DNA from: Boswellia sacra
Taxonomy: Eukaryota; Streptophyta; Magnoliopsida; Sapindales; Burseraceae
NCBI GenBank assembly: GCA_013180625.2
Contig: SNVD02015891.1
Location: 1 to 64,000, forward strand
Length of the DNA stretch: 64,000 nucleotides
Reading direction: 5' to 3'
Shown: positions 8,009 through 46,984 of the stretch, piece after piece
How positions within the stretch are numbered: position 1 is the first letter of the stretch
Layout of the letters: every line of letters starts with the position of its first letter
Made by a program: the position numbers and the translations under genes
Notes under the pieces: generated by a model
Told to the model about the DNA's origin: nothing
What the model saw: the letters and a program-made list of their open reading frames with translations, nothing else
Databases searched by the model: none

Positions 8009-9748
8009 ATGACAACTTTTAATTCAACTTCATATGTTGAGGGACTTTCTATCTCTAGACCTCCATTTTTTAATGGTAGTGATTACTCTTATTGGAAAAA
8101 TAGAATGAGTATTTTCTTGAAATCTTGTGATTATGATTTGTGATCTATTGTTTTGGAAGGACCTTTTGTTCCTGTCAAAATTGAAAATGGAGAAAGCATG
8201 CTTAAAGAATCTAAAGAGTTTAGTGAAGATGATAAAAAGAAATTGAGTTTGAATGCTAAAGCTATGAATGTGTTGTATTGTGCTCTAGATAGAAATGAGT
8301 TTAATAGAATATCTACTTGTTCTACGGCACAAGAAATATGGCACACACTTGAAGTAACTCATGAAGGAACTAGTCAAGTTAAAGAATCCAAAATTAGTAT
8401 GCTAGTTCATAGTTATGAGCTTTTTAAGATGAAATCAGATGAATCACTTTCTGAAATGTTTACTAGATTTACGGATATTATTAATAGTTTGAAATCTCTT
8501 GGTAAATCTTATTCTAATGTTGAAATGGTGAGAAAGATTCTTATGTGTCTACCAAAATCTTGGGAGCCAAAGGTGACGGCAATTCAAGAAGCAAAGGACC
8601 TCACCAAACTACCATTAGAAGAACTTATGGGTTCTCTCATGACTCATGAAATCACCTTGAAGGAGAATGAAGAAGATTTCAAGAAAAAGAAAAATATCGC
8701 TTTCAAATCTTCAACAAAAGAATATGATGAGTCCGACGATGAAGGAGACGATGAAGATCTTGCATTCATCACAAGAAAGCTAAAAAGGATGATTAGAAGA
8801 AACCAAGGATTCAAGAAGAATTCTAGAAGGGAGTACAAAAGGCAAAGCTCAAAGCAAGATAAGAAAAATGATCAAGTCATTTGCTATGAGTGCAAGAAAC
8901 CGTGACATGTAAAGATGGATTGTCCTTACTTCAAAAGTCAAAACAAGAAATCCAAAGCAATGAAAGCCACAAATTGGGATGATAGTGAAGCTAGCTCTAC
9001 CGAAGAAGAAGATTGTGAAATGGCAAACATGTGCTTCATGGCTTTACGAGAAGATGAGGTAAGTATTCTAAATCATGATCCTAAGCTTTCATATGATGAA
9101 TTACTTGAAGCATTTCAAAATTTACATGTGCAAGTTGATAAACAAAATTCAAAAATCAATGCTTTCAAAAAGAAGTCAAAAATCATGTTATCTCAATTAG
9201 AAGAGTTGGTGGAAATAAATGAAGCTTTAGAAAATAAAAATGAAATTTTAAAGCAAAAAGATTTTGAAAGTTTGGAAAGTCAAATATATTTTTTAAAAAC
9301 TGAAAATGAGATTTTAAAACAAAAGGATTTTGAGAAATTAGAGAAAGAAAATGTTATTTTGAAAAAGGAAAATAATGACTTAAGAAATATTGTTGATAGT
9401 TTTACAAAAAGCACAAAAAATTTGAATTCTATGTTACAAAACCGAAGGTGTGTTTTCGATAAAAGAGGGTTAGGATATAAACCTCATAAAAATCAAAAGT
9501 ATTTTAAAAATTATTTTGCTCATGCATCTTCTAGGAATAATTCTAATCATTCATGTACTTATTGTGGAAGAAAAGGACACAAAGTGCATTCTTGCTATAT
9601 TAAGAGAAATCCTAATTTGAAACAAATATGGGTTCCAAAAAGTATCATAACTAACCCCCAAGGACCCAAGAACTTTTGGGTACCAAAAAGTTACTCCTTG
9701 AATGTTGATTGTCGAGACAAAGGAGTGGCAAACACAAGTGGTACTTAG
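8009..9748 (+). pseudogene. Sirevirus gag
   Basis: Capsid/nucleocapsid polyprotein. The ATG at 8009 opens an F-F-N-G-S-D-Y-S-Y-W-K-N-R-M block typical of copia gag. A TGA at 8141-8143 interrupts it, and the same frame then runs to a second TGA at 8903-8905. That stop falls inside the first zinc knuckle (C-Y-E-C-K-K-P then stop) in place of the conserved Gly. The frame continues with an acidic segment, a long coiled coil rich in E-N-E-I-L-K repeats (about 9100-9420) and a second knuckle C-T-Y-C-G-R-K-G-H-K-V-H-S-C. It stops at 9748, where protease is already in another frame, so a frameshift lies near 9710-9740. Two nonsense changes and one shift make it nonfunctional. Confidence 0.88.
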
Positions 9749-10084
9749 ATAGTGGATGCTCAAGGCATATGACCGGAGATGCCTCCAAGTTCTCAAGATT
9801 AATCATGAATAAAGGAGGATATGTGACATTCGGTGATAATGCCAAAGGAAGGGTAATGGGACATGGTGATATTGTTAACCCTTCTTCACCTATTATTAAA
9901 GATGTTTTGCTTGTTCATGGTTTAAAACATGATTTGATTAGCATTAGTCAATTGTGTGATAAGAGATATTTTGTTACTTTTGAGCATTTTTTCTTTTTTT
10001 TAAAAAAATTTTTTTTTTTAAAAATTTTTTTTTTTTTTATTTTTTTGATTATTTTTTTATAATTTTATTTGCCTAATAGATGTG
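9709..10084 (+). pseudogene. Sirevirus aspartic protease, followed by low-complexity intrusion
   Basis: The segment W-Y-L-D-S-G-C-S-R-H-M-T-G-D contains the copia protease motif D-S-G, and continues as far as H-D-L-I-S-I-S-Q-L-C-D. After F-V-T-F-E the reading frame runs into poly-T/poly-A (about 9985-10062), where the protease-integrase linker should be. The active-site triplet is intact but the polyprotein is broken. Confidence 0.85.
9985..10070. repeat. Poly(T)/poly(A) low-complexity tract
   Basis: Long T runs broken by short A runs replace coding sequence between protease and integrase. This could be a microsatellite expansion or an assembly or sequencing artefact. Flanking coding text on both sides is normal copia pol. 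Confidence 0.8.
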
Positions 10085-11150
10085 TGATTAAGATGTTAGT
10101 TACAATAAGACATTATTTATTGGTAATAGATGTGGTAATATTTATACAATTGATATTGATGTTAATGATCATGTAGAAATTTGTTTCATTGTTAATCATG
10201 ATGCTTGGTTATGGCATAGAAGGTTAGGTCATGCTAGCATGGACACAATTTCAAAAATTTCTAAAAATGATTTAGTTGATGGTCTTCCAAAAATAAAATT
10301 TGAAAAGGATAAATTTGTGATGCTTGTCAATTTGGAAAACAAGTGAGAACTTCTTTTAAACAAAAGAAATTTATTTCAACAAATAAACATCTACAATTAC
10401 TTTATTTGGATTTATTTGGACCATCAAGAACTCAAAGCCTTGGTGGAAAGTATTATGTTTTGTTATTGTGGATGATTATTCAAGATTCACTTGGGTATTA
10501 TTCTTGAAAACTAAAAATGAGGCCATACAAGCTTTTTCAAAATTTGCAAAAAAAGAGTCCAAAATCAAAAAGGATATTCTATTGTGTCCATTAGGAGTGA
10601 TCATGGTGGTGAAGTAGACAATGTTGCATTTGAAATCTTTGTGATGAAAATGGTTTTTGAGCATAATTTTTCCTCACTAACTCCACAACAAATGGGTGTT
10701 GTTGAAAGGAAAATAGGACTAACCAAAAGAAATGGCTAGACCTGTTACTTGAAAATAATTTGCCAAAATATTTTTGGGCCGAAGCCGTAATACCTCATGC
10801 TTTATAATCAATAGAGTCCATATTAGAGCTTTAATAAAGAAAACTCCTTATGAACTTTGGAAAGGAAAAAAACCCAACATTGGATTTTTTAAAGTTTTTG
10901 GATGTAAATGTTTTATTTTAAATACTAAGGATAACCTTGGAAACTTTGATGCAAAAGCCGATGTTGGAATTTTTGTTGGCTACTCCAACCATAGTAAAGC
11001 ATATAGAGTTTTTAACAAAAAGACTCTTACTATTGAAGAATCTATGCATGTTGAATTTGATAAAACTAATATTATTTCTTCAAAGAATTTAGAAGATGAT
11101 ATTGTTGAGGTAGAAAGGCAAATCAAGGAATCAAGGCTTGATGAAAAGAG
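10085..11150 (+). pseudogene. Sirevirus integrase
   Basis: Inserts the cDNA into host chromatin. Recognisable blocks across shifted frames: the H-D-A-W-L-W-H-R-R-L-G-H-A zinc-binding start (10200-10230), C-Q-F-G-K-Q, D-L-F-G-P-S-R-T, D-D-Y-S-R-F-T-W-V, and the C-terminal K-T-P-Y-E-L-W-K-G-K-K-P and F-G-C-K-C-F segments (10774-11154). Frameshifts and stops occur around 10318, 10345, 10455, 10615 and 10735, so the D,D35E core is split. Confidence 0.82.
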
Positions 11151-11224
11151 CTAAGATGAATTACAACTTCAACAAGAAAAGCTTATGGAATAAACAACTT
11201 CAACAAGAAAAGCTTGAGAAGTAA

Positions 11225-12887
11225 ATGATTCTTCCCAAGAATTACCAAAGGAATGGAGGTATGCAAAAGCTCACCCTAAAGATCTCATTATTGGTGAACC
11301 ATCACAAGGTATGAAAACTAGATCTTCTTTAAAGAACTTTTGTAATCATTTTGCATTTGTCTCTCAATTTGAACCAAAATCTTTTAAAGAAGCCAAAAAT
11401 GATGAAAGTTGGATTTTGGCTATGCAAGAAGAATTGAATCAATTTGAAAGAAATCAAGTTTGGGAATTAGTCCCTAGACCCAAAAATCATTCTATTATAG
11501 GTACTAAATGGATTTTTAGAAATAAAGTAGATGAAAATGGCACCATTATTAGAAACAAAGCTAGACTTGTTGCTCAATGATACAATCAAGAAGAAGGTAT
11601 TGATTATGAGGACCGGTTGCTAGATTCGAATCAATTAGAATGTTGTGTGCATTTGCATGTTATAAAAATTTTACATTATATCAAATGGATGTCAAAAGTG
11701 CATTTTTAAATGGTTACATTATGGAGGAAGTATATGTAGAGCAACCTCTTTGTTTTCAAAATCATGATTTTCCAAACCATGTTTTTAAACTCAAAAAGGC
11801 ACTTTATGGCTTGAAATAAGCACCAAGAGCATGGTATGATAGATTGAGCAAATTTCTCATTGATAATGGTTTCGAAATAAAAAAAGTTGATACTACACTT
11901 TTTGTTAAAACAAAAAATGATGATTTATTAATTGTTCAAATCTATTTTGATGATATTATATTTGCTGCTACTAATTTTTCTATTTGTGAGGAATTTTCTA
12001 AGTGCATGCAACAAGAATTTGAAATGAGCTTAATGGGAGAATTAAATTTCTTCCTTGGACTTCAAATCAAGCAATCAATGGATGGGATCTTCATAAATCA
12101 AGCTAAATACACAAGAGATCTTCTCAAAAAGTTTGGCATGGATAATTCAAAGACATATAACACACCTATGGGTACATTAACCAAGCTTGACAAAGATAAG
12201 AAAGGAAAAGATGTTGAGGTAACAAAGTATCGAGGTATGATTGGCTCTCTTTTGTATTTAACTGCTAGTAGACCTGATATTATGTTTAGTGTGTGTATGT
12301 GTGCTAGATTTCAATCTTGTCCAAAGGAATCTCACCTTAAAGCTGTCAAAAGGATATTTAGATATCTTCTTGGAACCATAAATCTAGGTCTTTGGTATCC
12401 TAATTGTGATAATTTTGATCTAATTAGTTATTCTGATGCGGACTTTGCTGGAAGTCTTCTTGATAGAAAGAGCACTAGTGGCTCTTGCCATTTTCTAGGA
12501 CATGCATTAGTCTCATGGTTTAGTAGAAAACAAAATTCTGTTGCCTTATCAACCGCGGAAGCCGAGTATATTGCAGTAGGAAGTTGTTGTGCACAATCTC
12601 TTTGGATGAAACAAATTTTAAAAGATTATGGTGTGGTATTTGATCATATTCCCATCAAATGTGACAATACAAGTGCCATCAACATTTCAAAAAATCCCAT
12701 ACAACACTCTAGGACTAAGCATATAGAGATTAGACATCATTTTATTAGAGATCATGTGCAAAAAGGTAATATTTCTTTAGAATTTGTTCCCACCGATAAA
12801 CAATTAGCCGATATATTTACTAAACCCCTTAGTCAAGATAGATTTTGTATAATTAGAAGAGAATTAGGCATGTTGGATATGTCTTAA
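11225..12887 (+). pseudogene. Sirevirus reverse transcriptase/RNase H
   Basis: Copies element RNA into DNA and removes the RNA strand. The RT start (A-M-Q-E-E-L-N-Q-F-E-R-N, K-W-I-F-R-N-K) is at 11311-11580 and ends at a TGA. A shifted region follows to 11820, where a TAA interrupts Y-G-L-K-A-P-R-A-W. A 347-codon open segment (11844-12887) then carries the catalytic box as Y-F-D-D (usually Y-V-D-D) at 11943-11954, the D-R-K-S-T-S-G-S RNase H block, the A-E-A-E-Y catalytic Glu, and a complete C-terminus ending L-G-M-L-D-M-S. The RNase H half looks intact; the RT half is not. Confidence 0.9.
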
Positions 12888-19298: not shown

Positions 19299-20662
19299 TG
19301 ACACATCCGAAAAAGGATTGTCTCCCAAGTATAGGAGTGTCGAAGTAATAAAACCCGGTGAGACCGGGGTCGATCCACGCGGAAGGAGATTTTAGCGCTC
19401 AAATTATAAGCTAAGCAAATACGATATGATGATTCAAAGATATGAGAAGATAATATCAACAATGGATGAGAATAATTAAAATGCGCAAGTAAAAGGAATT
19501 AACACAATACAATTAAAGCTAAGGTTAGGGGATCCGCCCTTGATATTTCAAATAAGGATAATTAACCCATTTTAGTTATATGAATTATATTTGTTTCATT
19601 ACCAATATTTATACCACTTCTTGTAAATGGGTTCAAGCATCCAATGTGCCAATCACCATATGTCTACAACAAATCAAGGTTCCTAACTAGATTCGTGTCG
19701 GTAAGGAAGAACCATACATCATCTAGAAAGGATCCAAGCATTTGATGTGCCAAGGATTGTCGACAATGGATCAAGACCTCCACTTTACGAGTGGTGTCAA
19801 GATTGATTAAGAAATTAAATATAAATCATATTGAATAAACATTATAAGATTAAGATTATTAAGCACATATTAAGGGTTAGAGAATCCTTATTCTCATATC
19901 AAGGGTTTCACCCTTTCACCTTAGCAAAAGAGAAATTAGAAGAACATTATAATAGAAAGAAAATAAAATGCAAGAAAAAGGAAATTCATTAATAACATAA
20001 ACACACAAAACACAATACAAGATCCTAGCCAAAGCCAAAATGTTCCAGCCAAGGCCAAGATGCCCTAATGGGTCACAAGGCACCTCTATTTATAGATACA
20101 TCCAGGGGCAAACTTGTCAAATTACAAGGGCATAATTGTCAAATATTAGTTGTAAATATCTTTGACAATTGGGATCATTAGGCACTGACTTTGACCATCA
20201 ATTTTGACATCGAAATTTGTGAATTTTAATCACATGTCTTCATGAAAGTTGTAGATATTTCTCTCAGCTTTCTAGAACATATTGATTTGCACAATTTGGA
20301 TACGTATTTTGAGAGATACGGTCCAAATACTGAGGCCTGGTCAGACTGGGCCGAGACTGTAGATGGGTTCATTTCAAGCCCAATTTTGGTCCACTAAGAG
20401 CTCGAATTTGATGATGCTTGTGAAATGCAATCTTGTAGACAATTGAATCAGCTTTCCAAAACATTAATAATTGCACCATTCTGATCTATAAATAGAGAGT
20501 TATGCCCATTTTACCGAACCTGTAACAAAACCAAAATTAAGAGGAATTAATTCCAAAGATGCAAATGCTACAAATATGCTTAAGTTGAGGAATTTAATGA
20601 CACTATTAATGCAATATGATGAACTAAACTCTTATTAAACATGCATATTTAAGTGTTCATCA
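19299..20662 (-). mobile_element. Solo LTR of the Athila-like family
   Basis: TGACACATCC...GTTCATCA, the reverse complement of the LTR at 39442-40809, 1364 bases, flanked by the 5-base duplication CTTGC (19294-19298 and 20663-20667). An intact duplication with no internal sequence indicates LTR-LTR recombination of a complete insertion. It interrupts a tandem repeat unit. Confidence 0.92.
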
Positions 20663-21058
20663 CTTGCGCATCGTGCTAACTAAAAAGCCTCATCTAAGCA
20701 GCTTGCACATCGTGCTATTTCAATTAAGTCTCGTCAAGACTAACTTGCATATCATGCCGCTTCCATTTGGTATCATTGAGACTGACTTACACATCATGCT
20801 ACTTTGATCAGGTCTCATCGAGACTGACTTGCATATCGTGCTACTTCGATTGGGTCTCATCAAGGTTGACTTGCACATCATGTTACTTCGATTGAGTCTC
20901 ATCGAGACTAACTTGTGCATCATGCCATTTCAATTAGGTCTCATCGAGACTGACTTGCACATCGTGCTGCTTTGATTGGGTCTCATCGAGACTAACTTAC
21001 ACATCATGTCGCTTTAATTAGGTTTTATCGAGACTGACTTGCACATCATATAGCTACT
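20663..21058 (+). repeat. 42-bp tandem array
   Basis: After one ~40-base unit, 42-base units start at 20701, 20743, 20785, 20827, 20869, 20911, 20953 and 20995, with a partial unit at 21037. Each has ACTTGCACATCATGCT and ends GGTCTCATCGAGACTG; the CTCATCGAGA part is close to self-complementary. The apparent 14-residue periodic ORF on the minus strand is only a by-product. Confidence 0.9.
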
Positions 21059-22895
21059 GTAATTCCTCTAGGTGTTGAGCCCATTTCCTTTGCTGTTACC
21101 CCCAGTATTTCATACTGTATTATGATTCTACAAAGCTTGGTCACTTTTGGACTATGCTTCATTTTGGATCATGCTTCTTGCAAGAAAAGGATATATGATG
21201 CATGTATACATGCTCTATGCTGATGGTAACTATGTATACTTCTTGGGCTAGGCGATTCACAAGGGTGTGAACTAACTCTAGGCCAACTTCTTCTTTTTAT
21301 AAGAGGATACTGAGGATAACTTAACGATGAGCAGGGAGAGACTTTTGGTACTACAAACTCATGCAATAACTCTTCAAGTGCTTAAAACAATCTTCTAGCA
21401 AATAGTTAGTCTGCCTATTTCAGGTACTATTTCTTACGCTTCCTTCGAGATGTTTGAGATAATTTTATCTGTCATGGCTTTCAAGATGGTTGGGGCAATT
21501 CTTTGCAAACCCCATTCTTTTATTTTCTTAAGATGAATAGGCAATTCTTTGCCCCATAGCTTCTTTTCAGTTCTTAATATGAATGGGCAGTTCTTTACCC
21601 ACTGCATGAAGAGTTTAATACTATCTTACAGAATTTCTACAACTAGCTTTAATGGCATTATTTCTCCTTCTTTGTAGACATCCATGCTAGACGAAATGAT
21701 TAACTTCTTCCATATATCTTGCTTCTTCACTATTGGTGGTAAGGTTGCCTTCCTTGATACCAATGATGGGAACTACTGGCAGATTTTCTTCTTCTTAACA
21801 TGTTTTCAACACATCCAATAGCCTCCAACAACAAGTTGAAATGCTAAATGTGAGTTGTGGATCAATTTGATTCATATTTGAATTCTTCTAAGAATTTTCA
21901 AATTCGATAGCTCAAAGTTAATGCATTGACACCGTGATTGTTCACAATTTTGATTCTAATTAATTCTAGAATTACTTCATTCAAGATTCTTCTCGTGCGT
22001 GTGTATAGCCAATCATACTTCACTTGTTAAGACTTAGATAGCTTTATGAAAATAGAAACTAGTGATCAATCTCCAAAGATAGAAGGATTACCATAAGCTT
22101 ACTTTTCACACCACTCTCCACTAATGTAGGTTGATCACAACATCAAGGATCATAGGGCTTTATCAAGCTTGTAATGTCAGGCTTGGGTCAAGGTATGATA
22201 AGAAAATTATAAGGTTAACTCACTTATAGTCATACAACCATTCTAGGTTTTAATTGAGAGCATCAACTTATTTTCATCAGCATGTTTGTTTCAGTTTTGA
22301 ATGGCTACACCTCTAAACTTTGAGTATCCATCCACCACATTTGCCTTGCTTTCGATTTTGAGTGGCTACACCGCTAAACTTTACAAGCGATGGGATTAAA
22401 ACTTTTCTTTTCTTTTTCTTTTTTCTTTTTTCTTTTCTTTTTTTCTTTTTTTCTTTTTCTTGTTCTTGTTCAAACTCAAAATTGCACAAAACTTCTCAAA
22501 TTCCTTTCAATTTCCTGTAAGCATAGCTCTCAATACTTTTTTCTATATAATGTTCATATGCTATCAGTGAACGATACTATGTAAGAAAATTTTTTCTAGT
22601 GTTAGGCTAAATTTTGTGATTTGACAAAGAAAACGCTTGATTAGACTCGATAGGGTGCATTAGGGACAATAAAGAAAGCATAGGTTGGCTTGAAAGGCTA
22701 AATCGATCCAAAGAAAGCCTAAATCAATTCCTTAATGTTGTGAAGCCTAGGATTGTGCCTCGAGTGGTGATCAAACAGGTTCTATAGTCCTATAAGATCT
22801 CAACACTAAGCTTTATTCACATAAAGTTTCTCTAAGTGATATTAAGTTTCATATTCATGGCTATTTTACTCAAATGATTGAAGAATCAAAAATGA

Positions 22896-29164: not shown

Positions 29165-31087
29165 TGTAAACACTGGATCTTTTAGGGTCGATAATGAAAT
29201 AAAAATGGATGTCGAGCAATAAAAATGTCCGAATGCCCTTGCAAGCAAAAGGAATAAAGGTTTTTGAAAATAAACACATGAATTAAAAGAAATCAATCTA
29301 GGAGAGTCATATACTGTTGTGAAGCTACAAATGTCTAGTTTTCATAGAATTTCATGGATCACAAATCGGAGTCAAACTCAAAAAGTTACGTGCGATCGAA
29401 TAGATAAAGGTTGAACTACATTGAAAAGTTATAATACAAGAGGGTTTAGTAGGCTAAAATTGGTTAGCGGTTGTACGGTTGACGATCCATCCACAGTTGA
29501 ATGGCGGTCATCACATAGCCAACTGGTTGTTATTCTTGTCTATTTGGAAAATTTCTTAAGAAGCCTCCCATTTTTGTTTTCTCCTTTCTTTCTTCAACTC
29601 AGCTCTCAACTATATAAACCCCCATCCTCCTCATTTTCACACACACATCAATATCCTCTCTTCTCCCTCTTGAAGACACAGTTGAGAATTCAATAAGTCT
29701 TTTCAAGTTTAAAGTTTTCGAGTGTTTTTTATTGCTCTAAACCTAGAAATGGTACGTCCTAAGAGTAGTTCTCTCTTCTCTCTCTTTATCTTTTCTTTAT
29801 TTTTCTTGCTTTAGAGCATGCATGTTTAGGTTTGTTTATACTTAGAATAAGCATGTTTAGAATTTTGATGCCAAAAAGCATGGTTAGGCTATTATGAATT
29901 GTTCTAACCCTTGTTTGTTTTGCAAGATGTATTAACGTGTCAAGATAAGTCTTTTTTCCTTTCCTTATTTAGAAACATGAATATGGATTTTATTTCTTTG
30001 TGAATACTTAGAATCATGCTTAGGAACACATGTACAAAATCGTGCTAGGAAACTTTATGATTACCTTGAAGCATACTAGGAAATAACATAGAATAAGTAA
30101 GAATTATTATGTTTACCCTTGAACGCTTGAATTAGGCTAGAATAGCTATGACTGATATTGATTGATTGTATTAGGCTAGCAATGTCATGATTTACTATGA
30201 TTACTATGAATAAGCTAGAATTGTCATGCTTAGGTAGAATTACTATGATAAGAAATATCAAATCTAAGTAGAAGTGCCATGATTCTGGATTATGGCTTTG
30301 TATTGGAATTGTAATTGATTGATATGAATGAATGTATGAATATACCATGTTTAGAAGTATAACTGTATGATGCCATAAAGTGATGATAGACTCACATTGA
30401 TGGGGAGGGACCATTACTTATTAAATGTATGAATATGCATATAGAGGGCTAATAAACATTGAATAGACTCACATATGATGGTGAGGAATTCTTTATTTAT
30501 CGAATCTCAAATAGATTACTCATTGAATATCTGGTTTGCATGAATATGCTACGTATGAAATATTGTATATCTTTAATATTTGAAGTGTTCAGAAGTAAAT
30601 TTCCTTTATTTGTTGAAGAATAATTGTTGTAATCCTATTCCCCATCCCATATGTTTGCGAGGAGATGTAACTCTATTCTTCTCCCTCTTTCTTTGTATGA
30701 ATATATATAACTGTTTTTGTTGAATATACCTTACATGTCTTAATGAAGATAAAAATGAAATATGTGCACGAAACAAACCACTTAAGTGGATTGTATAACA
30801 ACATGATTTTTCTTATTTGGTATACCCTAGTGGACGCTAGATTTTGATCCGGTGAGGCGAATGGCTCGTACCCTACTTCTTAAACCTATCTTTATAGGGA
30901 TGAGCGTAGTTTAGGTCCTGAAGGGAGGGATCAAATTGCCCTTATTCATTCCCAATTGAGTAATTAGGTGGCAAATCCATTTCTCCAGATGTGCCCATGG
31001 CTCATTTGTGCTCTCTTAAGTCTCAAAAGAAGCATTTGATACAGTGTCGTGGTCACAAACTCTCTAGCAGGATGAAAGCCCTGTCCA
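29165..31087 (+). repeat. Tat 3' LTR (plus-strand element)
   Basis: TGTAAACACTGG... to ...GATGAAAGCCCTGTCCA, preceded by the purine tract AAGTAGGGGGCAATT (29150-29164), so it is a 3' LTR. The element's own gag-pol is absent from the window. Directly downstream lies the integrase 3' end of the minus-strand element at 31088. Confidence 0.8.
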
Positions 31088-33025: not shown

Positions 33026-34121
33026 TATGGATGGGGCTTTCATCCTGCCAGAGTGTTTACGACCACGACACTATGTTAAAGCCTTTTTTGAGACTTATTG
33101 GAACACAAATAAGCCATGAGCAGGTCTAGAGAAATGGATTTACCACCCAATTATTCAAATGGGAATGAATTGAGGCAATTTGATACTTCGCTTTAAGACC
33201 TAAACTACCCTCATCCCTTCAGACATAGGTTTAAGAAGTTAGGTACGAGCCATTCGTCTCACTCGGATCAAAATCCGACCTCCACTAGGGTATACCCAAT
33301 AACAAAACTCACATTGTTATACAGTCCACTTAAGTAGTTTGCTTTATGCACACATTTCCATTTTTATCTTCATTAGGACATGTGAGGTATATTCAACCAA
33401 AGCAGTTGTATATTTATACAAAAAAAGAGAGAAGAGAATATAGTTGCATCTTCTTGCAAACATAGGGGATAGGGGGTAGGATTACAATAATTGTTCTTCA
33501 ACAAATAAAGAAAATTTACTTCTAAACACTTCAAATATTCAAAGATATAAAATATTTCATACATAGCATATTCATGCAAACCATATATTGAATAAGTAAT
33601 CAATTTGAGATTCGATATATAAAGAATTCCTCACCATCATATGTGAGTCTATTCAATGTTTATCAAGCATCTACATGCATATTCATACATTTAATAAGTA
33701 ATGGTCCGTCACCATTAATATGAGTCCACCATCACTCTATGGAATCATACAAATATACTTCTAAACATGGTACATTTATATATTCATTCATATCAATCAA
33801 TTAAAATTCTAATACAAAGCTATCATCTAGAATCATGACACTTCTACCTAGATTTGATATTTCTTATCATGGTAATTCTACTATCGAAGCATCGCATTTC
33901 TAGCCTATTCATAGTAATCGTAGTAAATTATGACATTTCAAGTTTTAATCTTTATTAAGCATGTGAGGTGATTATTCAATCATAGCAGCTATATATTCAT
34001 ACAAAGAAAGAGAGAGGAGAATGGATCATATTTTTGTCAAACATGGGGGAAGGGGAAGAGGATTGCATCGCTTATTCTTCAATAACAAAATAAAATAATT
34101 CTACTTTAAATACTTCAAATT
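33026..34121 (-). repeat. Tat solo LTR, part 1 of a split copy
   Basis: The 3' end of a minus-strand Tat LTR, outer end at 33026 next to GTATT (33021-33025). It continues at 52346-53635 after the inserted plus-strand Tat element. Inside, the LTR text restarts: the ACATTTCAAGTTTTAATC stretch at about 33930 repeats the part first seen near 33345, so about 600 bases are partly duplicated. Confidence 0.85.
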
Positions 34122-34441
34122 TGTAGACACTAAACTTTTCAGGCTTGATGAAGGAATGAAGATGAATGTTGAGCAAGAAAATGACTAAAATGCCCTTGGA
34201 GCCAAGAAAGGAAAGGTGAGAAGGAATTGATGAAAGGTCTCGAAAACCGACACATGACTTAAAAAATTCATAGAAATTAATATATGAAGAATCTGATGGT
34301 GACTCATACATCGTTGCAAAGCTACGGATATATAGTTTTTGTAAAAATTTTCATATCACAAATCGAAGGTGACGGGACTGCACCGTAAAAGGACAAAATA
34401 GGAAGGGCCGAATAGAGACCAACCAGTCAGCTATCAAACAG
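34122..34441 (+). repeat. Tat 5' LTR fragment
   Basis: The first ~320 bases of the Tat LTR (TGTAGACACTAAACTTTTCAGG...), compared with 50390-50790. It ends at about 34441, where Athila-like reverse transcriptase begins. Confidence 0.85.
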
Positions 34442-34443
34442 CA

Positions 34444-36459
34444 ATTGTTTTAGGTCATGTGGTGTCTTCTAAAGGAATTGAAGTGGATAAAGCAAAAGCG
34501 GAATTAATTTCCCATTTGCCTCCACCAAAAACAGTTAAAGAGGTTCGTTCATTCTTAGGGCATGCTGGATTTTATAGGAGGTTCATAAGAAATTTCAGTG
34601 CTATATCTAAACCTCTTTGTAACCTCTTAATAAAAGATACTTCCTTTGAATGGACTCAAGAATGTCAAAATGTCTTTGATACACTAATTGGACTTTTAAC
34701 AACTGCTCCAATTATGCAATCTCCTGATTGGTCCTTGCCTTTTGAATTGATGTGTGATGCAAGTGACTTTGCCGTTGGTGCTGTCTTAGGACAAAGAAAA
34801 AAAGGTAAGCCTTACGTAATATACTATGCAAGTAGGACTTTAAATGATGCATAAATGAATTACACAACAACTAAAAAAGAACTACTTGCAGTAGTATTTA
34901 CATTAGACAAATTTCGATCTTATTTAATTGGCTCTCCAATAATTGTTTACACTGACCATGCAGCTGTGAGATATTTAATGACTAAATAGGATGCAAAACC
35001 TAGATTGATAAGGTGGATCTTATTGCTCCAAGAATTCAACATCACAATAAAGGATAAGAAAGGAGCCGAAAATGTCGTTGCCGATCATCTTTCAAGAATA
35101 ACGACAGATACATTAATTGAAACTTCACCTATCAATGATTCTTTTCCTGATGAATTTTTATTTTCTGTTGCTACTGTACCTTGGTTTGCTAAGATTGTAA
35201 ATTTTCTTGCGACAGGGAAAATGCCACCTCATTGGAATGCTCAAGACAAAAGAAAATTTTTAACTGAGGTGAAAAATTTTTACTGGGATGACCCATATCT
35301 GTTCAAATATTGTCCAGACCAAATAATGAGAAGATGCATACCCGACAATGAGGTAAGTAGTGTCATTAACTTTTGTCATTCTGAAGCATGTGGAGGACAT
35401 TTTTCATCTAGAAAAACAGCTGCTAAGATCTTACAATGTGGATTTTATTGGCCCACCTTATTTAAAGATGCACATGCATTTTGCAAAACGTGTGAAAATT
35501 GTCAAAAATTGGGATCCATTTCAAAAAGAAACATGATGCCTTTGAATCTCATTCTTGTTGTTGAAATCTTTGATTGTTGGGGTATTGATTTTATGGGACC
35601 CTTTCCACCATCATTTGGTTTTGTGTACATCCTTGTTGCAGTAGACTATGTTTCAAAATGGGTCGAGGCAATTCCATGTCGAAACAATGATCACAAAACA
35701 GTTGTCAAATTCTTGAAGGAGAATATCTTAAGTAGATTTGGAATTCCTCGAGCCATTATTAGTGATGGGGGTACACATTTTTGTAACAAACCATTTGAAA
35801 CTTTAATGAAGAAATATGGAATAACCCATAAAATTTCTACACCTTATCACCCACAAACAAGTGGACAAGTTGAATTAGCTAATAGGGAGATAAAACAGAT
35901 CTTAGAAAAAACGGTTAACCCAAATCGTAAAGATTGGTCTTTAAGACTTAATGATGCACTTTGGGCTTACCGAACTACTTTTAAAACATCATTAGGAATG
36001 TCTCCTTATAGACTAGTTTATGGAAAACCTTGTCACTTACCTGTGGAAATTGAGCATAAAGCTTATTGGGCCATTAAAACATTCAACACAAATTTGAATG
36101 ATGCTTGCAAATTACGTAAATTCCAACTGAGTGAACTTGAAGAAATCAAGAATGAGGCTTATGAAAATTCTAAAATCTACAAAGAAAAAATGAAGGTTTT
36201 TCATGACAAATCCATTGTTAGAAAATCTTTTGAACCTTCACAAAAAGTTCTTTTGTATGATTCAAGATTGCATTTGTTTCCTGGTAAACTTCGGTCTCGT
36301 TGGACTGGGCCTTTCATTGTTAAAAATGTTTTCCCTCATGGAGCAGTTGAAATTGAGAACCCAAAGAATGGTAATGTGTTTAAAGTTAATGGACAACGGT
36401 TAAAACCATTCTTTGAAAATTTTGACCAAAACGAAGAGTCCATTGCTTTAATCGATTGA
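34444..36459 (+). pseudogene. Athila-like pol: RT end, RNase H, intact integrase
   Basis: Frame runs from I-V-L-G-H-V-V-S-S-K-G to a natural stop at 36457-36459, interrupted only by TAA at 34852-34854 and TAG at 34987-34989. RNase H keeps F-E-L-M-C-D-A-S-D-F and Y-T-D-H. From 34990 the frame is open for 490 codons. Integrase there has the H2C2 module (H-S-E-A-C-G-G-H, then C-K-T-C-E-N-C), the catalytic Asp of W-G-I-D-F-M-G-P, the Asp of I-I-S-D-G-G-T-H-F, and the Glu of G-Q-V-E-L-A-N exactly 35 residues later. The C-terminal S-R-W-T-G-P-F-I-V domain is also present. This is the best preserved pol segment in the window. Lineage call is from pol sequence dialect. Confidence 0.92.
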
Positions 36460-36520
36460 TCTTTTTTAAGGATTGATTTTTCCCGGTCAAGTGGCGGATA
36501 GGGTACTTCGTGACATTTAA

Positions 36521-36534
36521 AGTCGGTTTTTCAG
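36521..36534 (+). promoter_or_regulatory. Possible splice acceptor before the accessory genes
   Basis: A T-rich tract ending TTTTTCAG, 51 bases before the ATG at 36586. Genes downstream of pol in gypsy elements are often expressed from a spliced RNA. The donor is not in the window. Weak evidence. Confidence 0.3.
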
Positions 36535-36585
36535 TTCCCTAAAAATTGTTGCTCACTTTGCATTCATTTTCCTTTCTTTTCTCGC

Positions 36586-37134
36586 ATGGACACCATTCTC
36601 TCAAATCTGCACAAACATTTTCCTTCTCTTCCTCCAAATGATTTGCTTAAAATTTACAAAGCTCGTGCAGAAAGACTAAGGATGTTGATGTGTAAGGGTA
36701 TGCCTGTCGAAGTAAGATGGTTAATTGAAGTCAAGGTTCGATTTTCCTATGAATTTTCAGATAATCTTGTATCTCACATGCCAGGTATGAGAAAAAGCTC
36801 TTACGCCAAAAAGCGAAGAGCGAAAAGGTTACAAGTTTGTCCCAAATATGCAAGATGGACTTGTAACCAGCGTTGCCGCTCCTTGGGATATTTGTCTAAT
36901 AATCGAGAGGATAAACTACAGTTCATCAAGAATGGACTGAGTAGGGAGTCTTTGGATGATATCCGAGTGACTCTTGAGACGCATTCTTGTGGACTTGTGC
37001 AGCGTGAAATTTTTAACTTATGGACACAATTCCGAAATGAGCAGGAATGCTACAGTCTTGGGAATCTGACTCAATACGACCCTGTTTGCCAATTTATAAG
37101 AAAACTGGATGGGAAGCATATCCCCAACTCATAG
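36586..37134 (+). CDS. Unknown basic, cysteine-containing protein carried by the Athila-like element
   Basis: Open for 182 codons with no interruption. No signal peptide or membrane span. The N-terminal third is helical-looking (K-I-Y-K-A-R-A-E-R). Residues 69-82 are strongly basic (S-S-Y-A-K-K-R-R-A-K-R-L) and are followed by Cys 85, 93 and 97; further Cys lie at 36, 135, 155 and 168. A basic stretch followed closely by spaced Cys suggests nucleic-acid binding. From memory of families, the layout resembles the cysteine-rich nucleic-acid-binding proteins of carlaviruses, some of which suppress RNA silencing. That is a weak likeness, since the metal-binding Cys pattern is incomplete. It lies 126 bases after the integrase stop and 318 bases before the LOG-like gene. 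It is not env-like. Function unknown. Confidence 0.7.
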   Translation: MDTILSNLHKHFPSLPPNDLLKIYKARAERLRMLMCKGMPVEVRWLIEVKVRFSYEFSDNLVSHMPGMRKSSYAKKRRAKRLQVCPKYARWTCNQRCRSLGYLSNNREDKLQFIKNGLSRESLDDIRVTLETHSCGLVQREIFNLWTQFRNEQECYSLGNLTQYDPVCQFIRKLDGKHIPNS

Positions 37135-37395
37135 AAGGTGTTTAAGCCGTTTCTGGACGTAAAACCAAAGGAAGATGTGAGCCACAGTCACAACTACCTG
37201 TACATATGCATGCGTGCCAATTTTTTTGAATTTTAATGTCTTATAGCTGTCATTTTTTAATTTGTATCTTTTGTTTGACTTATGGTGTCTTATTTCATCA
37301 TCTTTTTTTGAATTTCTATGCATAATTGTTGAATTTTTCAACAAGCAGCCGAGCTACCTATTTGGATGTCATCATTAGCATACCTTTTTACACTC

Positions 37396-37434
37396 CATAA
37401 ATACCACATCACTTGTTCTCTTCTTCACACATAG
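37396..37434 (+). promoter_or_regulatory. TATA-like box and possible splice acceptor before the LOG-like gene
   Basis: CATAAATA at 37396-37403, then a pyrimidine tract ending ACACATAG at 37434, 18 bases before the LOG-like ATG. Either could provide separate expression of the downstream gene. Both motifs are short; inference only. Confidence 0.3.
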
Positions 37435-37452
37435 TTAGAGAGTTGCATAAAC

Positions 37453-38102
37453 ATGGAGGGAACTTCAAAACGTCGAATCCAAAAGATATGTGTATTCTGT
37501 GGATCTCGACCGGGTAAAAGTGAAGAGTTTGTCGAGGCAGCAAATTCTCTTGGTAGACTACTAGCTGAAAGAAAGATTCATGTGGTTTATGGGGGAGGTA
37601 GCCTCGGGTTAATGCGTTGTGTGTCAAGAGCTGAACATGTAGGAGGGAGTCAAGTTTTAGGAGTTATTCCTAAAGCTTTGGCTATAGAAAGCATTGTTGG
37701 AAAAACGGTTGGGCATGAGTTACAAGTCTCCTCTATGCATGAACGCATGGCACATATGCTCATCAATTCAGATGCCTTTATTGCTTTACCAGGTGGCTTT
37801 GGTACTTTTGAAGAAATTTTTCAAATTACCTCTTGGGCCCAACTGAACCTCTATCAAAAACCCATAGGTTTGTTGAATGTTAACAATTTCTTTGATCCTT
37901 TAATAAGTTTTGTTGATGCAGCTGTAGAAAAAATTTTATCCCATATTGGGCGAGACAGATCCTTGTTTCTGCCACTTCTGCTGGTGAGTTACTTGACAAA
38001 TTACAAGAAGTTGAGTATGAACCTGACCCAGCTAGTACTCAAATTAATTGGGCAGGAGGGCAAAACAAAAAGTGCAAATTGGATCTGAATCTCCGTTTAT
38101 AA
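37453..38102 (+). pseudogene. LOG-like cytokinin riboside 5'-monophosphate phosphoribohydrolase, late frameshift
   Basis: LOG enzymes release active cytokinin bases from their riboside monophosphates in the cytosol. The reading frame matches plant LOG from the N-terminus (K-I-C-V-F-C-G-S at 11-18) through Y-G-G-G-S-L-G-L-M (46-54), V-L-G-V-I-P-K, M-H-E-R-M-A-H-M and P-G-G-F-G-T-F-E-E (113-121). Arg98 and Glu121, the known catalytic pair, are present; the Lys normally after Arg98 is Met. Homology then moves to another frame at about 37955. R-Q-I-L-V-S-A-T-S-A-G-E-L-L continues to a stop at 38100-38102, implying one net lost base. Read without the shift, the ORF ends at 38088 with an unrelated tail. 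No introns, whereas plant LOG genes normally have several, so it derives from a processed copy. The ATG context (AAACATGG) is strong. Confidence 0.88.
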
Positions 38103-39441
38103 TTTTTTTTCTTGTCCTTTATTTTATTTTATTTTATTTTTAGCATGTTATTTTATGAGTCTTTCAGGTCATCTCTCGAATAACAAAAGCTTCAGGTAAT
38201 GTCCCCTATACTTTATCTCTCTACATTTAAACATTGAGGACAATGTTTCATTTGGTTGGGGGAGAAGGATAGTAGACATAAGTGTGTCTTGAATTTTCTT
38301 TTTTCTTGCAAAAAAAAAAGCGAGTTAGTAGTTAGATTCAGAGTGCGGTGTAAGGAGTTCGAATCCTCTTGAGACGCATTCTGGGTCAGGAATGGCAGAG
38401 TAGGGAGGGCCAGTTTGAACTCTTGAAACCTATTCTAACCAATTTGTCATTTTATTTTAATCTTGTGAACTCATTTTAGCTAACTTGATATTATTTAGTC
38501 TTGATTTTTGAATTTTATAACAAGGAGGTCTTATTCATTTTACTTTGAATTATTCAAATCTATGAATCTCACAACCTTGTCATTTAAAAATTGTGTGCTT
38601 ATGTACTCATTAAGCAAGTATTCATGAACCTTTCTTCACACACACACACATACCTTGATGCATGATTGTGGGTGGCAAAATGAAATGTTGTAATATTAAG
38701 TTCTTTCATTTTGTTTAGGATAACAACACAAAGGAAGGGGAAAGTTAAAAACAAAAGAAGAAGAAAAGTGAAAAAAAAAAAGAAGAGAGCAATTGTGGAT
38801 AAGTTTGGTCTCGTAGCCTCCTTAATTCGAGCAATTAAGCAAGAGGGGTGCCTCACACCTAATACCCTAAGACCAACTGGTTTGGGAGCTATTGGCCCAA
38901 AGCTCGCTACATGGATTAAGGAGAAAGCTTAATGGGATTGAACATTGCACTATCCACAAGTTTCTAAGCAAAAATAAAGCATCGACAACCCGAGTCGTTA
39001 AGCTCGAAGGGGTGTCTTAACACCTAATACCCTAAGGCCAACTGGTCTGGGAGTCATTAGCCTAAGGCTCGCTACATGGATTAAAGATGCATTCATTCAA
39101 AAAAAAATAAAAAAAATATATATATATATAAAATGAATAAATGCCCCTTACCTAAGGTTGTTAGCCTTAACAAATATTAGAACCGATATGCCTTCTTTCT
39201 AATAAGCCCCATAGTCATGTGTTGACTGAGCACAAAAAGAAGATTTATAGATATCTTGACCGAAGGGTACATGAGTCATAAAAAAATAATAATAATAATA
39301 ATAATTGGTTGAGAGTTTGTTTATTTGGATAAAATCAAGGAGAGTGCAATAATGACCACCTTGGATGTAAAATTCTATAAATCACTTCTAAATAATAACG
39401 CTTTAATTGCTAGGGACTAGCAATAAGCTAGTTGGGGGGTG
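38103..39441 (+). other. Athila-like 3' noncoding region
   Basis: A TTTTATT-rich run (38118-38143). A perfect 8-base inverted repeat around AGGA at 38229-38248 (AAACATTG AGGA CAATGTTT), followed by a purine tract TTGGGGGAGAAGG (38255-38268). A ~90-base direct repeat with ACACCTAATACCCTAAG...CTCGCTACATGGATTAA (38838-38930 and 38999-39085). AT and TAA microsatellites (39100-39132, 39284-39305). A final purine tract GTTGGGGGGTG (39431-39441) abuts the LTR. Confidence 0.75.
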
Positions 39442-40809
39442 TGATGAACACTTAAATATGTATGTTTAATAAGAGCTTAGTTCATCATATTGCATTAATA
39501 GTGTCATTAAATTCCTCAACTTAAGCATATTTGTAGTCTTTGCATCTTTGGAATTAACTTCCTCTTAATTTTGGTTTTGTTACAGGTTTGGTAAAATGAG
39601 CATAACTCTCTATTTATAGATCAGAATGGTGCAATTCTTAATGTTTTGGAAAAATGATTCAATTGTCTACAAGATTAAATTTCACAAGCATCATCAAATT
39701 CGGGCTCTTAGTGGACCAGAATTGGGCTTAAAGTGAACCCATCTACAGTCTCGGCCCAGTCTGACTAGGCCTCAGTATTTGGACCGTATCTCTCAAAATA
39801 CATATCCAAATTGTGCAAATCAATATGTTCTAGAAATCTGAGAGAAATATCTACAATTTCATGAAGACATCTGATTAAAATTCTCAATATTTCAATGTCA
39901 AAATTGATGGTCAAAGTCGGTGCCTAATGATCCCAATTGTCAAAGATATTTACAACTAATATTTGACAATTATGCCCTTGTAATTTGACAAGTTTGCCCC
40001 TGGATGTATCTATAAATAGAGGTGCCTTGTGACCCATTAGGGCATCTTGGCCTTGGCTGGAACATTTTGGCTTTGGCTAGGATCTTGTATTGTGTTTTGT
40101 GTGTTTATGTTATTAATGAATTTCCTTTTTCTTGCATTTTATTTCCTTTCTGTTATAATGTTCTTCTAACTTCTCTTTTGCTAAGGTGAAAGGGTGAAAC
40201 CCTTAATATGAGTTCTAACCCTTAATATGTGCTCAATAATCTTAATCTTGTTTATTCAATATGATTTATATTTAATTTCTTAATCAATCTTGACACCACT
40301 CATAAGGTGGAGGTCTTGATCCATTGTAGACAATCATTGGCACATCAAATGCTTGGATCCTTCCTAGACGTCGTATGGTTCTTCCTTACCGACACAAGTC
40401 TAGTTAGGAACCTTGATTTGTTGTAGATATATGGTGATTAGCACATTGGATGCTTGAACCCATTTACAAGAAGTGGTATAAATATTGGTAATGAAACAAA
40501 TATAATTCATATAACTAAAATGGGTTAATTATCCTTATTTGAAATATCAAGGGCGGATCCTCTAACCTTAGCCTTCATTATTATTGTGTTGATTTCTCTT
40601 GTGTGATTCTCATTTATTGTTTACGAACTTATTCTTTACTTATATCTATTGATATTATCTTGTCATCCCCTTGAATCATCATATCGTATTTGCTTAGCTT
40701 ATAATTTAGAGTGCTAAAATTCCCTTCCTCGTGGATCGACCCCGGTCTTACCGGGTTTATTACTTCGACACTTCTATACTTGGGAGACAATCCTTTTTCG
40801 AATGTGTCA
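39442..40809 (+). repeat. Athila-like 3' LTR
   Basis: TGATGAACACTTAAATATG to CGAATGTGTCA, 1368 bases, directly after a purine tract. The same LTR occurs as solo copies in reverse at 19299-20662 and 45457-46984. Confidence 0.93.
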
Positions 40810-41300
40810 GTATAAAAAGAGATTGGCCTATAAGGACATATCTCGCTCGAAGAAGCCCAAGCCATCGAACCCTTGAGACTCAAGCTCATATAGACAACTC
40901 TAAAAACTTCCATTAGGATAAATATCCAAAACCCACATTGAGATGCATGTTTATAGATGTAAGGTCCCCATGATTAGAATAAAATTGACTTAAAGCTCAT
41001 GGAACCAAGAACGAATGCCATATGTCATGTCATCCATAAGAATAAAATAGGGACATGTGCCACAAGTTAAGGTTATCATGACGTTTAGAAGCCATGTTAT
41101 GATAATCGTGGAGAATCTAAACATCAACATGAATATTAGAAATAGGAGAGAGAATCTTGCATTACTATATCCCATGATGATGACCTAGGAATAAGGCCAA
41201 AGATCTTAGGAAATGAGAATCGACCTCACGTGTGTGGGAGAAATAAGGTTGGAAGGTTTAAAATGTGTCTAGGCCCTTGTATGAGCATGCATCATATCAT
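40810..41300 (+). other. Tat untranslated leader
   Basis: Leader of the plus-strand Tat element, matching the reverse complement of 24350-24790. Its 5' end and primer site are lost at the Athila-like LTR. No gene. Confidence 0.65.
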
Positions 41301-42560
41301 GCATACATACGTTCATGCATGGCATTAACACTTTTGTTTTGCAGCCATCATAGTTTGGGTTAGACGAGATGGTTGTTTGATAAGGTAAGAAGAACGAATT
41401 GGTGAATTGGTCATAGCCAATAACAACAATACTGAAATGGCTTAAGTGAGGGCTAACATCACCCCGTTCTAACAACAAATGGCCCAACTCATCAAAGCTT
41501 TACGAAATGGGCCTGTAATGATGGTGAGACAGCCAGGGCAATGACAAGTGGAAAAGCCTAATCAATTTGGAAGACCCGAATCGGTCAAACAATTAGCCAA
41601 GGAGATAGAGAATGTCCAATCCTTCTTGAAGAAAGGTTAAAAAGGGTCGAAGACCTAGACGATATCTTGCTCATTGGGGATAATGATTCACCTCCAAAGT
41701 TTCGCATGCTAGACTTGCCCAAGTTCAATGGAAAAGGCAACCCAAAGATGCATTTGAGACAGTATGTAGTTATCATGGCCATTACTCCTTCGTTGAAGGA
41801 GCACATATTGACGTATTTCATGCTATCCCTAGAGGATGATGTTGTAGTATGGTACCATGACCTCCTCAAGAGAGTTTGAGGAGATTGGGAGGAGTATTCT
41901 GAGCAATTCGTAGAGCAATATCGCCACAATACCCAGCTAAGGGTAACCTTGAGGGATTTGGAGACAATAGGGAAAAAGCCCAAAGAAACTTTTTCAGAAT
42001 ATGTAGTTAGTTGGGGGGCAAGGCAACCAAGATGACCACCGAGCCTACGGAGAAGGACTAGGTTCGTATGGTGATCAATGGAGCCTATATTTTTATCAGC
42101 AAGAGACTGGCGGGCTTCCCTATCAAGACATTTGAAGACTTTTATGATTCAAGCATCCAAATACAATAGTAGGAATCTAGGCAGAAAAGAAATAACTACC
42201 CTTGAAGTAGTCAAGGCAATATCACCAAACCAGTAGGTCTAGCACGAAGTATGTAGAGGCAAAGGCGATTTCCTTACAAAGGAAGTTCAGTTGTTTGGGA
42301 AGGCCACTTTCCAAGATCTTTGCGAGGTTAAGAGTCGAAGGAATCTTGTAACCATTACCACGAAGAGAGCTTCCAAATCCACTATTAAGGAATTGGAGGC
42401 ATCATGAGAAGTGTGAATTCCGCCAAGTGACCGATCACAAAACCAACAATTATACTCACCTCTACCATGAGATTCAAGACTTTATGACAAGGGCCAGATT
42501 CTTGACCTAAAAACCCATAAGCCTAATACTAGAAGCAACCTATTACCCAATTACAACTAG
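41301..42560 (+). pseudogene. Tat gag
   Basis: Frames broken by stops encode blocks shared with the gag at 57000-58200 on the other strand. Examples are P-P-K-F-R-M-L-D-L-P-K-F-N-G-K-G-N-P at 41690-41745, L-E-D-D-V-V-V-W-Y-H-D-L near 41835, and F-I-S-K-R-L-A-G-F near 42100. This is the layout of Tat/Ogre gag. No intact frame above about 70 codons. Confidence 0.78.
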
Positions 42561-45456: not shown

Positions 45457-46984
45457 TGACACATCCAAAAAAGATAATCTCCCAAGTATAAAAGTGTCGA
45501 AGTAATAAACCCGGTGAGACCAGGGTTGGTCCACGAGGAAGGGGATTTAGCACTACATACTAAGGGATAAGAAATATGATATGAATAATTCAAATAATTA
45601 ACAAGATGATATTAACAAATAAAAGTAAAAATGGTAGGCGGTACTATCGACCATGCAAATGTAGAACAAAAATAAAAGATAGTAAGACAATCCATGGACA
45701 TAGGAGGTACAACCTACCATAGCAAATAAAAGAATAATTTCATAAGCAATAAACGAGAATACTTAAAATACACAAGTAAGAAGAATTAACACAATAATAA
45801 TGAAAGCTGAGGTTAGGGGATCCGCCCTTTATATATCAAATAAGGATAAACAACCCAATTATAACTCAATTGGAATCCACACATCAAGGAGGTTCCAATC
45901 CAAAGGTATGTCATTTAAGCCCATTTTAGTTATATGAATTATATTTGCTTCATCACCAATATTTATACCACTTCTTATAAATGGGTTCAAGCATCCAATG
46001 TGCCAATTACCATATGTCTACAACAAATCAAGGTTTCTAACTAGACTTGTGTAAGTAAAGAAGAACCGTACGACATCTAGAAAGGATCCAAACATTTGAC
46101 GTGCTAAGGATTGTCTACAATAGATCAAGACCTCCACTTTACGAATGGTGTTGAGATTTATTAGGGAAATAAATATAAATCATGTAAAATAAATAACAAA
46201 AGATTATGATTTTTAAGCATATATTAAAGGGTTAGAGGATCCTTATTCTCATATAAAAAGTTTCACTCTTTCACCTTAGCAAGAGAGAATTTAGCAAGAC
46301 ATTATGAAAGAAAGAAAACAAATTGCAAGAAAAAGAAGATTTATTAATAACATTAGGATAAAAAAACACAAGAGAAAACATAATAATAAAAGATCCCATC
46401 CAAGGCTAAGATGCCCTAATGGGTCACAATGCACCTTTATTTATAGATATATTCAGGGACAAACTTGTCAAATTACAAAGGGACAATTGTAAAATATCTT
46501 GTTGACAACTTGGATCATCATGTGAACTAACTTTGACAACCAATTTTGATTACATGTCTCCATGAAAGTTGAAGATATTTCTCTCAACTTTCTAGAACAT
46601 CTTGATTCATATGATTTGGATATGTATATTAAGAGATATGGTCAAAATATGGAGACATGGTCAGGCTAGGCCAAAACTATAGATGGGATAAATTCAAGCC
46701 TATTTTCGGTCCACTAAGAGCCCGAATTTTATGATGCTTGTGAAATATGATCTTGTAGATAATTTAATTATCTTTCTAGAAAATCAAGATTTGTAGCATT
46801 CTGATCTATAAATAGAAAGTTATGCCCATTTTACCAAACCTGTAACAAAAACTAAAATTAAGATGAAGTTAATTCAAACGATGAAAATACTACAAATATG
46901 CTTAAGTTAAGGAATTTAATAACACTATTAATGCAATATGATGAATTAAGCTCTTATTAAGCATAGACATTTAAGTGTTCATCC
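45457..46984 (-). mobile_element. Solo LTR of the Athila-like family in Tat pol
   Basis: TGACACATCC...GTTCATCC, the reverse complement of the 39442 LTR, 1528 bases, with direct repeats GTTAG at 45452-45456 and 46985-46989. Removing the insert rejoins Tat pol in register across L-L-G-F-I-V. It is longer than its relatives by extra bases at about 45610-45770 and 45850-45910. The last base of the terminal CA is changed. Confidence 0.93.

Follow-up and report, generated by a model that had tools for sequence, protein, structure and literature searches.

In Ty3 retrotransposons of the Athila, Calypso and Diaspora type, the available parts of PMC1142308 and PMC6317226 describe a primer binding site (PBS) just past the LTR and 5-bp target-site duplications, and for Athila and Calypso also sense ORFs between pol and the 3′ LTR; a tRNA-Asp PBS has been reported for Diaspora and Calypso (PMC1142308). 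The element described here has a putative PBS at the same position, the same duplication length and sense ORFs, but its slot between pol and the 3′ LTR is filled by two genes, CRP and LOG, and not by an env-like ORF. In its accessible text, PMC9289625 reports a YgdH/LOG domain in Gypsy consensus sequences of Citrus sinensis and C. clementina, and of Populus trichocarpa with the filter off, and cites Steinbauerova 2011 as in line with such elements; the capture of such a gene, which an earlier note on this DNA considered unusual, is therefore not unprecedented. Those elements, like ours, have a LOG-family domain in a plant Ty3/gypsy context, and Citrus and Populus are also among the relatives that we found; however, in that text they occupy one line of a domain screen, with no mention of a CRP partner, the slot, selection, catalytic status or a wider distribution. 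The same text describes Gypsy elements of Phalaenopsis that carry an AlkB m6A demethylase and likewise are plant LTR elements retaining an added accessory enzyme, although this one is an RNA demethylase whose activity was shown in vitro and which the screen found in only two Phalaenopsis species. Carlavirus CRPs are described, in the available parts of PMC12172455 and PMC8839810, as silencing suppressors, and the one of Chrysanthemum virus B as a transcription factor that induces hyperplasia. Our literature search, which covered open-licence papers, returned no report of a CRP-LOG module or of its selection.

Our analysis of a 64,000-nucleotide stretch of DNA (the window) identified an intronless gene for LOG (cytokinin riboside 5′-monophosphate phosphoribohydrolase) within the remains of one such element. 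The features of the element and of its family in the window are as follows:

34438-34854, forward strand: end of the reverse transcriptase (RT) and RNase H, 5′-truncated, left limit approximate (PF17919/PF17917 in ORF 34459-34854; the copy L093 continues into RT)
34990-36459, forward strand: Ty3-type integrase with H2C2, rve and C-terminal part (PF17921, E 4e-13; PF00665, E 3e-18; stop-to-stop frame)
36586-37134, forward strand: CRP, a carlavirus-like cysteine-rich nucleic-acid-binding protein of 182 aa, second Cys replaced by Tyr (by homology; this copy is below the Pfam cut-offs)
37135-37207, forward strand: strongly conserved non-coding stretch past the CRP stop (71 bp, 87% identical to the LOG-less element L001)
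37453-38102, forward strand: LOG gene, intronless, frameshifted past residue ~159 (open frame 37453-38088; PF03641 and At2g37210 matches)
38227-38268, forward strand: motif AACATTGAGGACAATG..GTTGGGGGAG 3′ of LOG, common to L001 (by comparison with it)
39417-39441, forward strand: polypurine-tract region preceding the 3′ LTR (AGCTAGTTGGGGGGTG); the 25 bases are identical in 4 of 7 other copies and slightly different in 2, the LTR start of the seventh being unresolved
39442-40809, forward strand: 3′ LTR, TGATGAAC...GTGTCA, 1368 bp (by sequence comparison within the window and with other copies)
19299-20662, reverse strand: solo LTR of the same family, 92% identical, target-site duplication GCAAG
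45457-46984, reverse strand: solo LTR of the same family, fragmented, ~80% identical, target-site duplication CTAAC, limits approximate

The open frame of LOG encodes 211 aa of a LOG-family protein that matches PF03641 (E 2e-31; 109 bits against a cut-off of 27) and whose best solved relative is Arabidopsis At2g37210 (PDB 2a33, E 1e-51). Its translation confirms the residues listed in the earlier note, namely YGGGSLGLM, PGGFGTFEE, Arg98 and Glu121, and the intronless homologue is bracketed, at the coordinates claimed there, by the integrase stop (36459) and the start of the 3′ LTR (39442). The end given for the gene, 38102, corresponds to the stop of the usual LOG C-terminus, '...KKCKLDLNLRL', but this C-terminus sits in another frame (37905-38100, stop near 38102), and the window copy, frameshifted beyond residue ~159, lacks a full-length reading frame. 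Both this frameshift and the adjoining CRP gene had been overlooked.

The order of the pol domains is RT-RNase H-integrase, as in Ty3 elements. Upstream of the accessory genes, the window copy has only the RT end, RNase H and integrase, with two stops between the latter two, and a comparison of 34400-41500 with the whole window revealed no same-strand upstream LTR. Since it is 5′-truncated at ~34438 and interrupted by these stops, we consider the window copy a decayed relic. In other copies, the sequence TGGCGCCGTTGCCGGGGA, which is presumably complementary to tRNA-Asp and would thus be a PBS of that type, lies ~6 nt past the 5′ LTR; three of five copies have it unaltered and the other two have a single change. 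The intact element very probably consists of a 5′ LTR, gag-pol, CRP, LOG, a spacer and a 3′ LTR, and is a high-copy, Athila-like Ty3 element in which CRP and LOG are both resident.

Based on a protein search of the window's own assembly (638.6 Mb), all 150 scored places match the window LOG with 74-100% identity; the 15085 first-look candidates of this search are not a copy count. Stops are common in these places, ~60 of which are free of them in the matched stretch by hand count. In the best 30 of the 150, window included, the element spacer follows LOG in every case, an LTR start lies within the examined stretch in 28, and CRP is matched in 27 (in L010 and L019 solely by its last 27 codons). 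The integrase is present in 16 of these loci, and its position was not classed in three (L007, L012, L013). In the other 11 (L004, L005, L006, L010, L011, L014, L015, L019, L020, L025, L027) other sequence takes its place, and CRP is kept in nine of them, L010 and L019 being those reduced to the last 27 codons. Gag-like sequence (L092) was found upstream of L006, the one integrase-less locus checked, so L006 is a derivative that has lost pol but retains CRP and LOG.

We fetched the flanking stretches on both sides of 10 LOG copies. An upstream LTR was present in seven, and identical 5-bp target-site duplications in six of the seven, which shows that elements have transposed with LOG inside them. 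In C2230, the seventh, no such duplication is present and a second piece of LOG lies farther upstream; the LTR upstream of this copy may therefore be a neighbour's. The LTR-LTR K2P distances of five copies are 0.009, 0.031, 0.036, 0.041 and, for C2230, 0.113. At substitution rates of 7e-9 to 1.3e-8, the youngest measured LOG-bearing copy is less than a million years old.

Among the 120 listed (of 7941) LOG relatives in other plants, Reevesia accounts for at least 33, spread over numerous scaffolds with different numbers, Diplodiscus for at least 11, Xanthoceras for 7, Populus for 5 and Parasponia for 1. RT, RNase H or integrase domains occur in 17 of 36 long LOG-containing proteins, from two Citrus and two Primulina species, at least two of the 17 (P0121, P0153) having the appearance of fusions with other element types; Acer LOG models carry gag-like sequence, as judged by eye. 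CRP lies between the integrase domain and LOG in the gene models P0132, P0143 and P0146, and in P0155 an integrase-like remnant alone precedes CRP and LOG. Gene models of Citrus and Primulina contain the CRP-LOG module as well. In addition, LOG P0008 and CRP P0162, each 71% identical to the window, are probably on one contig, since both are listed with a longest contig of 8723 bp. A comparison of an element LOG with 175 plasmid records returned only bacterial LOGs, at less than 60% identity.

Canonical plant LOGs such as At2g37210 and At5g11950 belong to the same protein family as the element LOG and share its catalytic residues. Nevertheless, the element LOGs make up a single clade (37 rows, support 100/97) in a tree built from 49 representatives of 154 segments, after exclusion of 6 short ones. 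The canonical plant LOGs, of which five were sampled, fall outside this clade, and most element LOGs have an added basic stretch and an LxLxL tail. Within the tree, Primulina groups weakly (83/80) with Diplodiscus, the window and further rows; Primulina is an asterid. Three Populus proteins named LOGL10 (P0040, P0073, P0075; one representative in the tree) fall inside the element-LOG clade, and some annotated LOG genes may thus be transposon genes. This would concern annotated 'LOG' genes that lack introns, in poplar, Reevesia, Citrus and other plants, and would matter for studies of cytokinin gene families.

The ORF between integrase and LOG (36586-37134) is a homologue of carlavirus cysteine-rich nucleic-acid-binding proteins. 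The window CRP itself is below the Pfam cut-offs (E 0.007). Of 4261 candidates in an alignment-based search, 1094 are relatives at E<=0.01, many of the 120 listed being exactly 182 aa long, and in an alignment of the window with 56 of these 120 (57 rows), 43 rows match PF05515 (best 1e-8) and 41 match PF01623 (best 2e-7) at E<=1e-3. A basic cluster is directly followed by a C4 zinc finger, with Cys85, Cys88, Cys93 and Cys97 in 55, 55, 57 and 50 of the 57 rows, respectively; Cys88 is the residue replaced by Tyr in the window. Carlavirus proteins (PF01623, PF05515) share the NLS-like basic cluster directly before a C4 finger, but the available part of PMC8839810 gives their spacing as C-x2-C-x12-C-x4-C, whereas that of the 182-aa element CRP is C-x2-C-x4-C-x3-C. 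No relative of CRP was found by sequence among solved structures and no match in phage records, and IMG/VR, scanned with LOG, CRP and integrase, yielded no relative that could be confirmed; an AlphaFold model was of low confidence (pLDDT 58.5), too weak for a fold comparison. CRP may act in the manner of the carlavirus CRPs, as a silencing suppressor or a nuclear nucleic-acid-binding factor.

L001 (DAIEQH010000041.1), which has integrase and CRP without LOG, is an element from another plant; this 3330-bp plant retrotransposon contig stands in a Candidatus Nomurabacteria MAG record as contamination. Between its CRP and that of the window (72% identity), dN is 0.21 and dS 0.92. The stretch past the CRP stop retains its 87% identity to L001 over 71 bp despite a CRP synonymous divergence of ~0.9; RNA folding of it gave no clear structure (z -0.39, -1.36), and Citrus gene models translate its counterpart, as seen by eye.

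For selection on LOG, dN/dS (w) among the 13 other own-genome copies that reach the usual C-terminus (L032-L044, one without a start ATG) is 0.37 (0.23-0.58); for comparison, pairwise values are 0.43 for CRP (43 copies) and 0.52 for integrase (17 copies). When single-step changes over LOG residues 1-158 were counted on a tree of 50 protein-ascertained copies, internal branches had 64 synonymous and 32 non-synonymous ones (w 0.15) and terminal branches 107 and 203 (w 0.56; p 3e-8), a contrast absent for CRP (0.36 vs 0.41, p 0.53) and integrase (0.31 vs 0.47, p 0.21). Most LOG copies and relatives were found through similarity to the window LOG, which favours conserved ones; since such ascertainment biases LOG dN downwards, a sample was taken by the non-coding spacer DNA, comprising 20 of the 39 other places listed (40 were scored; the 3009 first-look candidates of this search are not a copy count). 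LOG is present in 12 of these 20 copies and open along its aligned length in 4 of the 12, with w 0.48 (0.37-0.63) and a weak contrast between internal (0.31) and terminal (0.54) branches (p 0.08). The other eight (L072, L073, L074, L076, L085, L087, L089, L091) share a deletion of LOG and most of CRP, retaining only the last 27 CRP codons, and have the same non-integrase sequence upstream; LOG and CRP are thus not needed in cis. The junction of these derivatives reads mostly ..TTTTCTTCATAG and then TCTTGGG, reminiscent of a splice acceptor.

These data bear on how LOG came to reside in the element. The gene is intronless and the window copy is frameshifted, as might be expected if a host LOG cDNA had inserted by chance into one retrotransposon copy; the identical slot in 30 of 30 loci, the match in all 150 scored places, frameshift positions that differ among copies and the recurrence of the module in gene models of Citrus and Primulina leave such an event with virtually no probability, and as a single-copy insertion it is refuted by copy number and context. 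A frameshift allele shared by the copies can likewise be discarded, the frameshifts lying at different places in each; the query itself had favoured frameshifted copies. The earlier note had taken a single occurrence, or absence of LOG from the same LTR family elsewhere, as the mark of a chance insertion: many copies have LOG, yet it is indeed missing from 8 of the 20 selected by the spacer. The amplification of LOG-less derivatives, the small share of spacer-ascertained LOGs with a frame open throughout (4 of 12) and the loss of the catalytic motif in the Citrus rows would suit a passive passenger, captured once and multiplied by hitchhiking without being of use to the element. Against this, w in the spacer-ascertained copies is of the same order as for integrase and CRP, and neutral drift at the CRP divergence from L001 would leave ~19% identity (maximum 27% in 500 simulations), compared with the 71% observed for LOG between lineages, so we regard a mere passenger as highly improbable. 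The proposal that LOG is an element gene has strong support from its many copies, its fixed slot, the paired LTRs flanked by target-site duplications, the purifying selection on it and the matching architecture in other plants; to the reading that it is a resident gene under purifying selection, we assign a probability of about 0.9.

What the gene does for the element is a separate matter. Of the own-genome copies, 24 of 30, 18 of 20 and, among the spacer-ascertained ones, 9 of 12 retain both Arg98 and PGGxGTxxE intact. So do 105 of the 123 non-Citrus rows, for which 34 representatives show a mean pairwise identity of 64%. In Citrus, none of 19 rows keeps the catalytic motif, DLATLEA standing in 14 and close variants in 5 (among P0121-P0155), and several Citrus models retain the C-terminal tail without it. 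The LxLxL tail, which we take to be EAR-like, ends 68 of the 120 listed LOG relatives; of the 52 without it, 30 have a length below 205 aa. Since the catalytic residues are kept in most non-Citrus rows, hormone activation by these copies is our best guess, put forward tentatively and at short of even odds. LOG would convert cytokinin nucleotides to active cytokinin in the cells that express the element. This would favour germline-competent cells that divide or are meristem-like, through which new copies pass to the offspring; a change in cell division or in the state of the meristem, as the earlier note suggested, is plausible.

The basic C-terminal stretch and the tail suggest a second role as a nuclear co-repressor, which could be what persists in the catalytically degenerate Citrus lineage, where LOG is possibly a pseudoenzyme effector. 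A nuclear role through the tail would be the main rival to hormone activation. Non-hormonal activity, whether hydrolysis of nucleotide 5′-monophosphates affecting nucleotide pools or a nuclear scaffold recruiting co-repressors, is consistent with the frequency of the tail and with its retention in Citrus models devoid of the catalytic motif, but the conservation of the catalytic residues in most non-Citrus rows argues against it, and we consider it rather unlikely. The hormone-activating reading can be extended, doubtfully, to an old angiosperm retrotransposon lineage with a module of two genes for manipulating the host: a nuclear zinc-finger protein of carlavirus-like type that would counter silencing or rewire transcription, and a cytokinin-activating enzyme that would keep cells dividing or meristematic, turned non-catalytic effector in Citrus. 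Such an element would make the cell state of its own inheritance, as gall-forming pathogens do. If so, plant retrotransposons, like some pathogens, would encode hormone-activating and silencing-suppressor-like functions, and their 'extra ORFs' would become testable effectors.

Elsewhere in the window, ORFs at 8144-12887 resemble, by eye, a Copia-type retrotransposon (gag, RT/RNase H). A tandem repeat with a 42-bp period (20702-21079) adjoins the solo LTR at 19299-20662, and an inverted repeat of 341 nt, 90% complementary (30234-30574 and 33541-33881), lies just upstream of the truncated element.
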